A stretch of DNA of 64,000 bases from Thermus caldilimi (lineage in GTDB: Bacteria > Deinococcota > Deinococci > Deinococcales > Thermaceae): positions 1,536,796 through 1,600,795 of the forward strand of contig NZ_CP038452.1 of the NCBI RefSeq assembly GCF_004684245.1. Reading direction: 5' to 3'. The notes beneath the pieces are model-generated. The model was not told the origin of the DNA. It worked only from the letters and a program-made list of their open reading frames with translations, and ran no database searches. Of this stretch, positions 47,723 through 53,380 are shown piece by piece; the stretch's first letter is position 1, and every line of letters starts with the position of its first letter. The position numbers and the translations under genes were made by a program.

Positions 47723-48714
47723 TTATCGGCCCCTCAGGAAGGCCACGTAGCGCTCCAGGAGCAGGTACGCCTCCCCCGAGGCCAGGACCTCCCGGGCCAG
47801 GCGCACCCCCTCCTGTATGGAGGGCGCCCTCCCGGCCGCGTAGAAGCCCGCCCCCGCGGCCAGGGCCACCCCTTGGGCGTGAGGGCCTTTCTCCTCCCCC
47901 TTTAGGATCCTTTTGGCCAGCTCGGCGTTCTCCTGGGGGGAGCCGCCCTTTAGGGCCTCGAGGGAAAGACGGGGGAGGCCCACCTCCTCGGGGGTGAGGG
48001 CATAGGCCCCCCGCCCCACCTCCACCACCTGGTTCTCCCCCAGGACCAGTTCGTCCGCCCCCTCCCCGTGGACCACCAGGCCCCCTGCCCCCAGGTGCCC
48101 CAGGGCCTCGGCCATGGGGGCAAGCCACCTGGGGCTATAGACCCCAAGCACATACCGGTCCGCCCCCGCGGGGTTGGTGAGGGGGCCCAGGAGGTTGAAG
48201 ACGGTGCGGATGCCCAGCTCGGCCCGCACCGGGGCCACGTGGCGCATGGCGGGGTGAAAAACCCGGGCGAAGAGGAAGCCAAAGCCCAGCGCCTCAATGG
48301 CCTCCCCCACCCGCTCAGGGGAAGCCTCCAGGTCCACCCCCAGGGCCTCGAGGAGGTCCGCAGAGCCCGCACGGGAGCTTGCCGCCCGGTTCCCGTGCTT
48401 GGCCACCGCCACCCCCCCGCCGCCGCCACCAGGGCCCCCAAGGTGGAGAGGTTCAAAAGCCCCTGGTGGTCCCCCCCGGTGCCCACGATGTCCAAAAGGG
48501 GCCTGCGGCTTACGGGGATACGCCGGGCCGCTTCCCGCATGGCCTTCGCCATGGCGGCGATCTCCTGGGGGGTCTCCCCCCTTAGGGCCATGGCGGTGAG
48601 CACCCCCGCCACCCGCACCGGGCTGAGCTCCCCCCGCATCATGGCCCCCATGAGGCCAAAGGCTTCCTCCTCCGTGAGCACCTCCCCCAAAAGCGCCTTC
48701 TTCACCGCGTCCAT
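47723..48714 (-). pseudogene. trpD: Anthranilate phosphoribosyltransferase, frameshifted
   Basis: TrpD moves phosphoribosyl from PRPP to anthranilate. The 5' frame reads MDAVKKALLGEVLTEEEAFG through DIVGTGGDHQGLLNLST to VAAAGG; the 3' frame continues VAVAKHGNRAASSRAGSADL to the stop. The break is at the G run 48412-48418: seven G where eight restore AAAGGVAVAKHG. The span of 992 nt is one short of 331 codons (330 residues). All motifs are kept, so a sequencing undercall is likeliest. It overlaps trpG by 13 nt. Confidence 0.9.
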
Positions 48715-49283
48715 GGGTCCTCCAAGAAGTTCTTGAGGATGAGTTTACCGGCTTCCGTCAGGTAGCTTTCCGGGTGGAACTGCACCCCGTGGGTGGGGTA
48801 CTGGCGGTGGCGGAAGCCCATCACCGTGCGCCCCCCCGCCTCCTCCACCCAGGCGTTCACCCGGAGGTCTTCCGGCACCTCCTCCACCACCAGGGAGTGG
48901 TAGCGGGTGGCGGGAAAGGGGTTAGGCAGACCCCGGAAAAGGCCGGTGCCGTCGTGGTGGATCTCGCTCACCTTGCCGTGCATGACGATGGGGGCGGGCA
49001 CCACCTTGCCCCCGAAGGCCATGCCGATGGCCTGGTGCCCCAGGCAGACCCCCAGGATGGGGTAGCGGGGGGCGTAGCGGGCGATGAGGGGCAGGGAAAG
49101 CCCGGCCTCCAAGGGAGTGCAGGGGCCTGGGCTTATGAGGACGCGGTCCGGGTCCAAAGCCTCCACCTCCTCCAACTGAAAGCGGTCGTTCCGCCACACG
49201 ATGGGGCTTGCCCCCAGTTCCCCCAAATACTGCACCAAGTTGTAGGTGAAGCTATCGTAGTTGTCGATCACCAGCACCCTCAT
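48702..49283 (-). CDS. trpG: Anthranilate synthase component II (glutamine amidotransferase)
   Basis: A 193-residue class I amidotransferase that supplies ammonia to TrpE. The triad is Cys80 (GVCLGHQ), His170 and Glu172 (GVQFHPE). It opens MRVLVIDNYDSFTYNLVQYL. It follows trpE by 52 nt and overlaps trpD. Confidence 0.95.
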   Translation of the reverse strand: MRVLVIDNYDSFTYNLVQYLGELGASPIVWRNDRFQLEEVEALDPDRVLISPGPCTPLEAGLSLPLIARYAPRYPILGVCLGHQAIGMAFGGKVVPAPIVMHGKVSEIHHDGTGLFRGLPNPFPATRYHSLVVEEVPEDLRVNAWVEEAGGRTVMGFRHRQYPTHGVQFHPESYLTEAGKLILKNFLEDPWTR

Positions 49284-49335: not shown

Positions 49336-50723
49336 TCATAGTCCCTCCTCCGCCATCTCCACCGCCCGCAGAAGGGCCCTCGCCTTGTTCCAGCACTCCT
49401 CGTACTCCCTTTCCGGCACCGAGTCCGCCACGATGCCCGCCCCCGCCTGCACGTGCATCCAGCCGTTTGCGATCACGAAGGTGCGCAAGGTGAGGGCCAC
49501 GTCCATGGCCCCGTCGTAAGCCAGATACCCGAAGCTCCCCCCGTAGGGCCCCCGGCGGTGGGGCTCCAGCTCCTCGATGATCTCCATGGCCCTTATCTTG
49601 GGGGCTCCCGAGACCGTGCCCATGGGGAGGACGCTGGCCAGGGCGTCCAAGGGGGTCTTGCCCTCCGCCAACACCCCTTCCACCGTGGACACCAGGTGCA
49701 TCACGTGGGAGTACCCCTCCACGCGCAAGGGCTCCAAAACCCGCACCGTGCCGAAGGCGGAAACCCGGCCGATGTCGTTGCGGGAAAGGTCCAGAAGCAT
49801 CACGTGCTCGGCCCTTTCCTTCTCGTCCCTTAGAAGCTCCTCCGCAAGCCTTTGGTCTTCCTCCTCGTCCTTCCCCCGGGGCCTTGTGCCGGCGATGGGC
49901 CGGGTGACCACCTTGCGGCCATCGGAGCGGAGAAGGCTTTCGGGGCTCGCCGAAACCAGGACCACCTCCCCCAGGTCCAAATAGCCCATGTAGGGGCTTG
50001 GGTTCACGCTCCGAAGCGCCCGGTAGAGGGCAAAGGGGTGGACGGTGAGGGGGGAGGAAAGCCGTAAGGAGAGGACCACCTGGAAGATGTCCCCGGCGCG
50101 AATGTACTCCAAGGCCCTTTCCACCGCCCTTAAGTACTCCTCCCGGCCCATGTCGGGCTCAAAGCGGGCCCTCCCCCCTGGCCTTTCCCCCGGCACCCCT
50201 GGCAAGGGACCCTTAAGCTTTTTCTCGGCCCAAAGAAGGCGGGCTTCGGCCTCCTCGAGATCCCGCCCCGGGGCCACCAGGTGCAGGAGATTTTTCAGGT
50301 GGTCAAAGACCGCCACCACCTCGGGTTCCACGAAGAGGAGGTCGGGGAGGCCCAGATCGTCGGGCTTCAGGGAGGGCAGGCGCTCGTAGTGGCGGATGAG
50401 GTCGTAGGCGGCGTACCCCACCACCCCCCGAAGAAGGGGGGCAAGTCGGGGTGCCGCTCCATGGGAGCATGAACCGCCTCATAAAGGGTGCGCAAGGGGT
50501 CCCGGGTTTCCACCCTTTCCCCGTTTACGGTGAAAATCCCGTCCTTCAGGCGGAAGGTGCGCCGGGCCCCCACCCCGATGATGGAAAAGCGGCTTTGCCT
50601 TCCCCGCTCCACCGACTCCAGAAGAAAGCTCACCGGGGCCTTCTCCGAAAGCTTTAGGTAAGCGGTCACCGGGGTTTCCAGGTCCGCCAAAAGGGTCTTG
50701 CGAAAAGGCCTTATGGTTTCCAT
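49336..50723 (-). pseudogene. trpE: Anthranilate synthase component I, frameshifted
   Basis: TrpE converts chorismate to anthranilate with ammonia from TrpG. The 5' frame (METIRPFRKTLLADLETPVT to PFFGG) holds the feedback-site region with LLES; the 3' frame (VGYAAYDLIRHYERLP onward) carries the chorismate-binding domain (IAGTRPRGKDEEED; GAPKIRAMEIIEELE). They break at the G run 50424-50429: six G where seven give FFGGVVGYAAYD. The span of 1388 nt is one short of 463 codons (462 residues). Probably an undercall. It lies just downstream of the attenuator. Confidence 0.9.
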
Positions 50724-50735
50724 GCCGCTCCTTAC

Positions 50736-50761
50736 AAAAACCCCGGGGCCTAGCCCCGGGG
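50736..50761 (-). terminator. trp attenuator terminator hairpin
   Basis: CCCCGGGG (50754-50761) and CCCCGGGG (50741-50748) form an 8-bp stem around a 5-nt loop, followed on the minus strand by TTTTT (50740-50736), 13 nt before the trpE start. This is segment 3-4 of a classical attenuator. Confidence 0.88.
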
Positions 50762-50777
50762 AAACACGCCCATCCGC

Positions 50778-50785
50778 CCCCGGGG
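50778..50785 (-). promoter_or_regulatory. trp antiterminator segment (CCCCGGGG)
   Basis: A third identical copy of the palindrome lies just after the leader-peptide stop. It can pair with 50754-50761 and so block the terminator when the ribosome stalls at the Trp codons. Confidence 0.75.
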
Positions 50786-50787
50786 AC

Positions 50788-50823
50788 CTAACCGGGCCAC
50801 CAAAGGGCGGGAAACGGGCTCAT
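50788..50823 (-). CDS. trpL: trp leader peptide (11 aa, tandem Trp)
   Basis: The reading frame encodes MSPFPALWWPG with adjacent TGG codons at positions 8 and 9, then TAG. The stop lies 2 nt before the antiterminator segment. The ATG is about 6 nt after the -10 box, so the message seems leaderless. A low charged tRNA-Trp level would stall a ribosome here and expose the antiterminator, switching on trpEGD. Similar attenuation is known for Thermus trpE, as I recall. Confidence 0.88.
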   Translation of the reverse strand: MSPFPALWWPG

Positions 50824-50883: not shown

Positions 50884-52434
50884 TCAGAACCTTTCGGCCA
50901 CCGTCTTCATCTGCAGGAAGTGCAGGAGGTAATCGGGCCCCCCGGCCTTGGTGTCGGTGCCGGAAAGGTTGAAGCCGCCGAAGGGCTGCACGCCCACCAA
51001 GGCTCCGGTGATCTTGCGGTTGAAGTAGAGGTTCCCCACGTGGAACTCCCGCCGGGCCCGTTCCAGGTGCTCCCGCTTGCGGGAGTAAACCCCACCCGTG
51101 AGGCCGTAGACGGTGTTGTTGGCCACCTCCAGGGCCTCGGAGAAGTCCTTCACCCGGATCACGGAAAGCACCGGGCCGAAGATCTCCTCCTGGGCGATCT
51201 TGGCCGTGGGCGGCACCTCGGTGAAGACGGTGGGGGCGATGAAGTAGCCCTCCCCCTCCAGGCGCTCCCCCCCCAGGACCAGCTGGCCCTCCCCCTTGCC
51301 GATCTCAATGTAGGAAAGGATTTTTTCCTCCTGGGCCTTGGAGGCCACGGGGCCCAGGTCGGGGTTCTCCTCCGCGGGGCCCACCACCAGGCGCTCGGCC
51401 CGCTTCAAGACCCTTTCCATCAAGGGCTCAAAGGCCTTCTCCGTGACGATGAGCCGGCTTGCCGCCGAGCACTTCTGCCCCTGGAAGCCGTAGGCGGAGA
51501 TGAGGATGCCCTCGGTAGCGGCTTCCAGGTCGGCGGTTTCGTCCACGATGAGGGCGTCCTTGCCCCCAAGCTCCAGGAAGACCCGCTTGATCCACCTCTG
51601 GCCAGGGGCCAGCTTGGCTGCCCTTTCGTGGATCCAAAGGCCCACATCGAGGCTCCCCGTGAAGTTGACGAAGCGGGTCCTGGGGTGCTCCACCAAATAG
51701 GCCCCCACCTCCCGCCCCTCCCCGGGCAGGAGGTTCACCACCCCGGGAGGGAAGCCCGCCTCGTGGAAGATCTCAAAGACCTTGGCGGCGATGACCACCG
51801 TGTCCTCCGCGGGCTTGGCCACCACGGTGTTCCCCACGGCCACCGGCCCGGCGATCATCCCGGTGAAGATGGCGATGGGGAAGTTCCAGGGGGCGATGAC
51901 CACCCCAGCCCCCAAGGGGATATAGAAACTCTCGTTGTCTTCGCCAGGGAAGGGCACCACCTCCACGGAGGGGTACTTGTGCTTGAGGGCCTGGCGGGCG
52001 TAGTACTCCAGGAAGTCGATGGCCTCGGCCACCTCGGCGCTGGCTTCCACCCAGTTTTTGCCGATCTCGTAGACCAAGGTGGCCTCGAGCTCCCGCCTTC
52101 TCCTTTTCATGAGGGCGGCGGCCTTCAGGAGGAGGCGGCTCCGGTCCTCCTGGGGCCAGTCCTTCCAGGTCCTAAAGGCCCTCCAAGCCGCCTCCAGGGC
52201 GGCTTCCGCCTCGGCCCGCCCGGCCTTGGCGGTGCTCCCCACCACCTCGCTGGGAGCCGAGGGGTTTAGGGACAGGATCCTCTCCTGGGTCTCCACCCAG
52301 GCCCCATCGATGTAGAGGCCATAATGGCGGCCAAACTCGGCCTTGACCCGCCTTAACGCCTCTCGCATCTCCCGCTTGGCCTCCTCCGTCTGGAAGGTTT
52401 CTATGGGCTGGTTGCGGAAAGGTTCCACCGTCAT
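50884..52434 (-). CDS. rocA: 1-pyrroline-5-carboxylate dehydrogenase
   Basis: A 516-residue aldehyde dehydrogenase oxidising glutamate semialdehyde to glutamate, the second step of proline breakdown. The catalytic Cys322 ([11 protein letters not shown]) and base Glu288 (FLELGGK) match the known T. thermophilus enzyme. A near-perfect GGAGGTGA ribosome site precedes the ATG, after a run of eight A. It follows prodh by 22 nt, in one operon. Confidence 0.97.
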
Positions 52435-52456
52435 GCCTCACCTCCTTTTTTTTCCT

Positions 52457-53380
52457 TTAGCCTCCTAGGAGGCTCCTTAGCACCAAAAACAGGTTTTCGG
52501 GCCGTTCGGCGATGCGCCGGCTTAGGTAGGGGTACCAGTGGGTGCCGTAGGGCACGTAGGCCCGCACGGTGTACCCCTCGTTGGCCAAACGCCTTTGCTC
52601 CTCCGGGCGCACCCCGTAGAGGAGCTGGAACTCAAAGCGCTCCTTGGGGATGCCCATGGCCTGGTTGTAGCGCTTCACCTCGGCGATGAGGCGGGGATCG
52701 TGGGTGGCCAAGGCCACGTAAAGCCCCTCCTTTAGCGCCAGCTTCCCCAGGTGCAGGAACTCAGCGTCGATGAGGCGCTTGTCCTGGAAGGCCACCTCCT
52801 TGGGCTCCCGGTAAGCGCCTTTCACCAGGCGGAGGTTGGGCTTGTAGGGGAGAAGGTCCAGGAGGTCTTTTTCCGTGCGGTAGAGGTAGCTTTGCAAGAC
52901 CACCCCCACCCCGGTAAACCCTTCTTCCCGCAAGGCCTTGTAGAGGCGCAAGGTGGCGTCCACCCTGGGGGAATCCTCCATGTCCAGGCGCACGAAGACC
53001 CCCCTGGGCTCGGCCTCGCGGAGGATGCCCCGCATGAGCTCCAGGGCCAGGGCCTCGGAGAGGTCCAGGCCCAGCTGGGTGAGCTTCAAGGAAACGTACT
53101 TGGGCCAGGGGCGCTCGGATATTTTGCGGACCAGCTCCAGGATGCCCGCCTGGAAGCCCCGGGCCTCCTCCTCGCTATGGACCATCTCCCCCAGGAGGTC
53201 CAAGATGGCGTGCACCCCCTCGGCCTCCAGCCGCTCCGCCGCCTGGAGGGCCTCCTCCAGGCTCTCCCCCGCCACGTAGCGGCGCACCAGGCTCCTGGCC
53301 CTGCCCTTGATGAGGGCCTCCACCTTGGGGTTTCCCGCCACGGAAAGCACCGCCTGCCGATACATGAGGTCCAGGTTCAT
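52457..53380 (-). CDS. Proline dehydrogenase
   Basis: A 307-residue monofunctional FAD-dependent PRODH, first step of proline catabolism, feeding electrons to quinone. The TIM-barrel signatures [32 protein letters not shown] and the C-terminal [12 protein letters not shown] (proline-binding arginines) are visible. The ATG overlaps the gntR stop by 4 nt. Confidence 0.96.

Follow-up and report, generated by a model that had tools for sequence, protein, structure and literature searches.

How transcription of the trpEGD operon is controlled is the question raised by a short leader 5´ of trpE in the stretch of DNA analysed here (64 kb in total, hereafter the window), as this leader holds both a small Trp-containing ORF and three copies of one octamer, CCCCGGGG. 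The element was concluded to be, very probably, a ribosome-mediated transcription attenuator of this operon; a leader ORF with Trp codons, a 3:4 terminator, 2:3 and 1:2 helices exclusive of one another and a suitable spacing, i.e., the features that define attenuators of the trp type, were all found. The sequence-only reading had already proposed a trp attenuator with a Trp-Trp leader peptide, and this was borne out by the peptide MSPFPALWWPG* (the asterisk denotes the stop), by the terminator, by the position 5´ of trpE and by trpG and trpD following downstream. Its coordinates (50736-50823) were correct as well, and the strand, which it had left unnamed, is the minus strand (Table 1). The intrinsic terminator is located between the leader ORF and trpE and consists of a 9-bp GC hairpin (3:4) and the T5 tract.

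Table 1. Features of the trp leader and the trp genes, in positions of the window
Feature	Position	Strand	Description and basis
Leader, 99 nt		minus	5´ of trpE
-35 element (probable)	50858-50853	minus	TGGACG; sequence and comparison of 27 genomes
-10 element (probable)	50835-50830	minus	TATTCT, ends 6 nt before the leader ATG; comparison of 27 Thermus
Leader peptide ORF, 11 codons	50823-50788	minus	ATGAGCCCGTTTCCCGCCCTTTGGTGGCCCGGTTAG, MSPFPALWWPG*; predicted leaderless, sequence comparison
Tandem Trp codons (sensing codons)	50802-50797	minus	TGGTGG; Thermus comparison
Segment 1	50795..50819	minus	within the leader ORF, partner 50788-50768; folds, 1:2 covariation in Thermus
Segment 2 and its 3´ tail	50768..50788	minus	includes octamer copy 1, CCCCGGGG, at 50785-50778
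Segment 3	50761-50754	minus	octamer copy 2, CCCCGGGG; partner of segment 2 or 4; 2:3 covariation across genera
Segment 4	50748-50741	minus	octamer copy 3, CCCCGGGG; 3´ arm of the terminator; 3:4 covariation across genera
T5 tract	50740-50736	minus	completes the intrinsic terminator; sequence, terminator scan
trpE ribosome-binding site	50733-50728	minus	AAGGAG; sequence
trpE ATG	50723	minus	sequence
trpE, anthranilate synthase component I	49336..50723	minus	Pfam PF04715 and PF00425
trpG, glutamine amidotransferase	48702..49283	minus	Pfam PF00117
trpD, anthranilate phosphoribosyltransferase	47723..48714	minus	Pfam PF02885 and PF00591

As compared to close relatives, the frames of two of the three operon genes are broken: trpE and trpD have each lost one base within or beside a run of G (near 50430, within 50420-50440, and at 48410-48430, respectively), and the operon may hence be non-functional in this assembly. 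Both deletions are typical of homopolymer sequencing errors. A deletion at the same trpE G run was also identified in a separate genome (G007, locus L002), and judged by the sequences this G run may be a real slippage hotspot. Just upstream of the trp leader the minus strand carries genes for an aldehyde dehydrogenase, probably the pyrroline-5-carboxylate dehydrogenase, and for a proline dehydrogenase (50884-53380), the sequence upstream of the leader being a different one in several other Thermus. Further away, a DDE transposase gene (PF01609; 54714-55838, plus strand) probably marks an insertion sequence.

A search of the genus with the trpE N-terminus yielded 27 Thermus genomes, and upon direct reading the element was found in every one of them, a conservation which is the strongest evidence against a chance arrangement. 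A pattern comprising Trp-Trp, the stop and two octamer segments was matched in 21/27 Thermus genomes, each time at this one place, and in 0 of 84 other genomes of the phylum, while the reversed control pattern gave zero matches. The Trp-containing leader ORF is present in 27/27 Thermus genomes, with at least two tandem Trp codons in 26 of these; one Trp codon is found in G005 and three are found in G015, and a 3-nt deletion within the leader ORF of G018 leaves the frame intact. The encoded peptide is 10-11 residues long, and its variable first part is followed by a constant W-P-G-stop end (W-S-G in G012). In every Thermus, 1-2 nt separate the stop codon from the start of segment 2. These findings bear on the idea that the element is a constitutive intrinsic terminator, e.g., one that serves the proline catabolism genes upstream, and that the short ORF and the extra octamer are there by chance. 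In its favour, the 3:4 hairpin and its T tract make a good terminator, and the upstream gene on the same strand ends at a distance of about 60 nt from the leader ATG. The idea is considered very improbable, as the Trp codons, the stop position and segment 2 are kept in the 27 genomes and beyond, as the element accompanies trpE also where another sequence lies upstream (e.g., in L009, L017, L018, L024 and L025) and as the helices 1:2 and 2:3 covary.

Next to the conservation of the ORF itself, its distance to the promoter was found to be fixed, as a -10 element of the form TATYYT (TAAGGT in one genome) precedes the ATG by exactly 6 nt in 27/27 Thermus. Owing to this distance, the leader peptide is probably leaderless, with the transcript beginning at the A of the ATG or at an adjacent base, and the corresponding prediction of the sequence-only reading is thus regarded as probable. 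The -35 element of the window matches TTGACA in 4/6 positions and is spaced by 17 nt from the -10 element; CTAGAC or CTGGAC was identified at the -35 position in nearly all of the 27 Thermus genomes compared. A consensus promoter scanner gave no site here at its strict threshold.

The octamers had been described as three identical palindromes, of which any copy could pair with any other or with itself, and as an unusually simple switch. In the GC-rich 64-kb window CCCCGGGG is common (20 copies found vs 24.5 expected), so that a single copy means nothing; for three out of 20 randomly placed copies to fall within 45 bp, P is about 0.001, and 3:4 is the sole hairpin with self-complementary arms that a strict scan (8-bp perfect stem, loop of 3-8, T-rich tail) identified in the whole window. 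Three exact copies are indeed present here, and their identity is mostly forced: segments 2 and 4 are alike because both complement segment 3, and since segment 3 is self-complementary all three are alike, the sole extra property of the octamers being this self-complementarity. Three exact octamers were found in 17/27 Thermus, the remaining 10/27 having two exact copies and one altered copy; exact threefold identity is hence not fixed within the genus, and it is lost in most other genera. The self-complementarity of segment 3 is close in Thermus and the sister genome G071 (L084, again with three exact copies) and only rough elsewhere. As to the pairing, the part of the claim that concerns 2:3 and 3:4 stood, but self-pairing in cis is not useful: for a single octamer it would comprise at most 2 bp around a 4-nt loop, is used in no predicted fold and was rejected. 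To call the switch unusually simple was an overstatement, because the identity of the copies is mostly forced, segment 1 and the 1:2 helix had been left out, exact threefold identity is not fixed and the order of transcription is needed to make it work, the 2:3 and 3:4 helices being nearly isoenergetic. The self-complementarity of segment 3 might enable segment 2 to oppose segment 4 in addition to segment 3.

Three mutually exclusive helices, 1:2, 2:3 and 3:4, are conserved, and their use was followed by folding, leader by leader, the RNA which the ribosome leaves free in each state. The front edge of the ribosome was set about 12 nt downstream of the first base in the A site, an established toeprint value. 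In the window, where the stop codon lies at leader offset 33 and the segment-2 octamer at 38-45 (a gap of 2 nt), a ribosome positioned on the stop codon consequently covers the RNA up to offset 45 and one stalled at the first or second Trp codon covers it up to 33 or 36, respectively. In the stop state the ribosome masks segment 2 and the remaining RNA folds into 3:4; a stall at the first or the second Trp codon leaves segment 2 exposed, and it pairs with segment 3 before segment 4 is made. The stop-state 3:4 fold and the Trp-stall 2:3 fold were obtained for Thermus and most other Thermaceae examined (in L109, 2:3 was not well resolved), and folding without a ribosome gave 1:2 together with 3:4. 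As modelled, the spacing fits ribosome-mediated attenuation, in that a stall at either Trp codon would free segment 2 and a ribosome at the stop would cover it. The folding energies in the window are -19.9 (2:3) vs -20.9 kcal/mol (3:4) at 37 °C and -9.9 vs -11.4 kcal/mol at 70 °C, and the minimum free energy fold of the stalled state still contains 3:4 when all of segment 4 is present. A simple thermodynamic switch was rejected, as 2:3 does not beat 3:4 in energy; with both helices being nearly isoenergetic and 3:4 being retained in the stalled-state fold, antitermination must be kinetic, with 2:3 forming first.

Covariation was scored against shuffles that ignore relatedness, so that the counts out of 500 are supportive and do not represent probabilities, and by this measure 1:2, a strong helix, is the best-covarying part of the element within Thermus (90.9% of cells paired, 16 double-change cells, score 0.219 vs 0.170 shuffled, 0/500); slid controls agree, all of them being lower in score and in percentage paired. 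For 2:3 and 3:4 the 27 Thermus genomes hold no covariation information, the octamers being nearly invariant, and other genera were used for this reason. There, with the same supportive reading of the counts, 2:3 reached 96.3% paired and a score of 0.220 vs 0.172 shuffled (8/500), and 3:4 reached 95.4% paired and a score of 0.132 vs 0.106 shuffled (3/500). The earlier proposal that pairing of segment 2 with segment 3 prevents the 3:4 terminator is supported by both lines of evidence, the helices being exclusive by folding and covarying across genera.

For this wider comparison, trpE was fetched from 22 other Thermaceae genomes and from other Deinococcota families. A Trp-rich leader and a terminator were identified at the same place in all 22 non-Thermus Thermaceae genomes and in family f4, the leaders mostly ending in WWWPG* or WWPG* (WWWPG* plus a terminator being found in family f4 and in genera resembling Meiothermus and Calidithermus), while the leaders of families f2 and f3 read WWWQPEKPRV*, WWWQLG*, WWWQLV* or WWWFR*, again with terminators. 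In total, most Deinococcota families examined possess a Trp-rich leader and a terminator; family f5 is mostly without them under the same scan. Where the octamer segments are altered, pairing was found to be preserved, as in L087 (CCCUAGGG/CCCCUGGGG/CCCCAGGGG), in L090 (segment 2 CUCCAGG, segment 3 CCUGGAG) and in L104 (CCCCUAGGG/CCUAGGGG). Four family f5 loci (L121, L123, L125 and L127) carry short ORFs 5´ of trpE, directly behind a TATACT-like box and with spaced Trp codons (e.g., MIPLHRRTGTTWRWRRH*); no obvious terminator was seen with these ORFs, which judged by their sequence are possibly a different, translational attenuator.

The end of the leader peptide deserves separate consideration. 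Among L087-L111 and L001-L027, W-P-G-stop is retained, with a variable third base in both the Pro codon (CCC 36, CCT 12) and the Gly codon (GGC 23, GGA 11, GGT 10, GGG 4), a codon usage which suggests that the end of the peptide is itself under selection, perhaps to slow its release at the stop. The same amino acid conservation would be expected of translational attenuation by peptide arrest, i.e., of WWPG* stalling the ribosome at the stop on free Trp, as TnaC does. This explanation is held to be highly unlikely, as the residues upstream of W-P-G lack conservation, a Trp at a fixed distance as in TnaC was not seen and the peptide ends deviate in L087, L113, L133, L134 and G012; moreover, a biosynthetic operon needs regulation of the opposite sign, and since the terminator precedes the ribosome-binding site of trpE, control is exerted at transcription.

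For the ribosome-mediated attenuator, the helices, the spacing and the covariation being computed, we infer promoter use, leaderless translation, stalling and termination in the following way. Transcription would start at or next to the leader AUG and a ribosome would load at the 5´ end of the transcript without a Shine-Dalgarno site. When Trp-tRNA is scarce, the ribosome would stall with either of the two UGG codons in the A site, covering segment 1 and leaving segment 2 free, which would pair with segment 3 as soon as the latter emerges; segment 4 would thus be left alone and transcription would proceed into trpE. With ample Trp, the ribosome would reach the stop with its front edge over the segment-2 octamer, and 3:4 followed by U5 would terminate transcription. 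Without translation, 1:2 would sequester segment 2, whereby 3:4 would terminate again. Beyond this, it was speculated that leaderless trp attenuators might be ancient, Deinococcota-wide and independent of the proteobacterial type, that W-P-G-stop might be kept for a slow release at Pro-Gly-stop which holds the ribosome over segment 2, and that segment 3 of Thermus might be self-complementary so that segment 2 opposes either terminator arm at high temperature; this extended proposal is regarded as unlikely.

Among known RNA families, an Rfam search of the window at gathering scores returned only a tRNA and nothing at this locus. The Trp_leader family (RF00513) was matched neither in the window nor in the whole genome at E <= 0.001, with the E. 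coli control being matched, and the T-box (RF00230) gave no match at this locus, the single T-box of the genome being located elsewhere. T-boxes thus do occur in Deinococcota, this very genome included, which is what speaks for a trp attenuator operated directly by a protein or a tRNA (TRAP-like or T-box) in place of a translating ribosome. Such a device is judged extremely improbable, as the locus shows no T-box or other Rfam match and no (G/U)AG repeat array, and as the tandem-Trp leader peptide and the spacing from stop to segment 2 would be purposeless. The proposed ribosome-mediated attenuator stands in a phylum that has no Rfam model at this locus, and comparative evidence extends this kind of trp attenuation to most Deinococcota families examined. 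A literature search in which few older papers were covered found no account of a Thermus or Deinococcota-wide trp attenuator. Sato and co-workers are said to have described an attenuator-like structure upstream of trpE of Thermus thermophilus HB8 in 1988, of which the present element, sharing gene, genus and position in another species, is presumably the orthologue. The element provides an example of a very short and simple attenuator whose leader peptide is probably leaderless, and it would be suited to the study of leaderless initiation coupled to transcription at high temperature. The paper on trpE and trpG of T. thermophilus HB8 is known from its citation (Sato et al. 1988, Biochim Biophys Acta 950:303-312, cited by PMC8305020).

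Deinococcus deserti has many leaderless mRNAs (PMC9031893), and a leaderless Trp leader peptide ahead of trpE has been described for Sinorhizobium meliloti trpL-trpE(G) (rnTrpL/peTrpL), where the AUG of a 14-aa peptide is the 5´ end of the transcript and where the released sRNA and the peptide act in trans (PMC7298713). The Thermus element, whose leaderless form is a predicted one, resembles this system in its leader peptide and differs from it in sequence and phylum, trans roles being known for S. meliloti. With E. coli trpL (RF00513) it shares the tandem Trp codons in a short leader peptide, the mutually exclusive 1:2, 2:3 and 3:4 helices and an intrinsic terminator before trpE; unlike E. 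coli trpL, it possesses an ORF of 11 codons which is probably leaderless, short GC palindromes as segments and a segment-2 octamer that starts 2 nt past the stop codon. The known attenuation mechanism is left unchanged by the Thermus element: the mechanism is the ordinary one of a classical trp attenuator, and modestly new are its deep conservation and its probable leaderless form.
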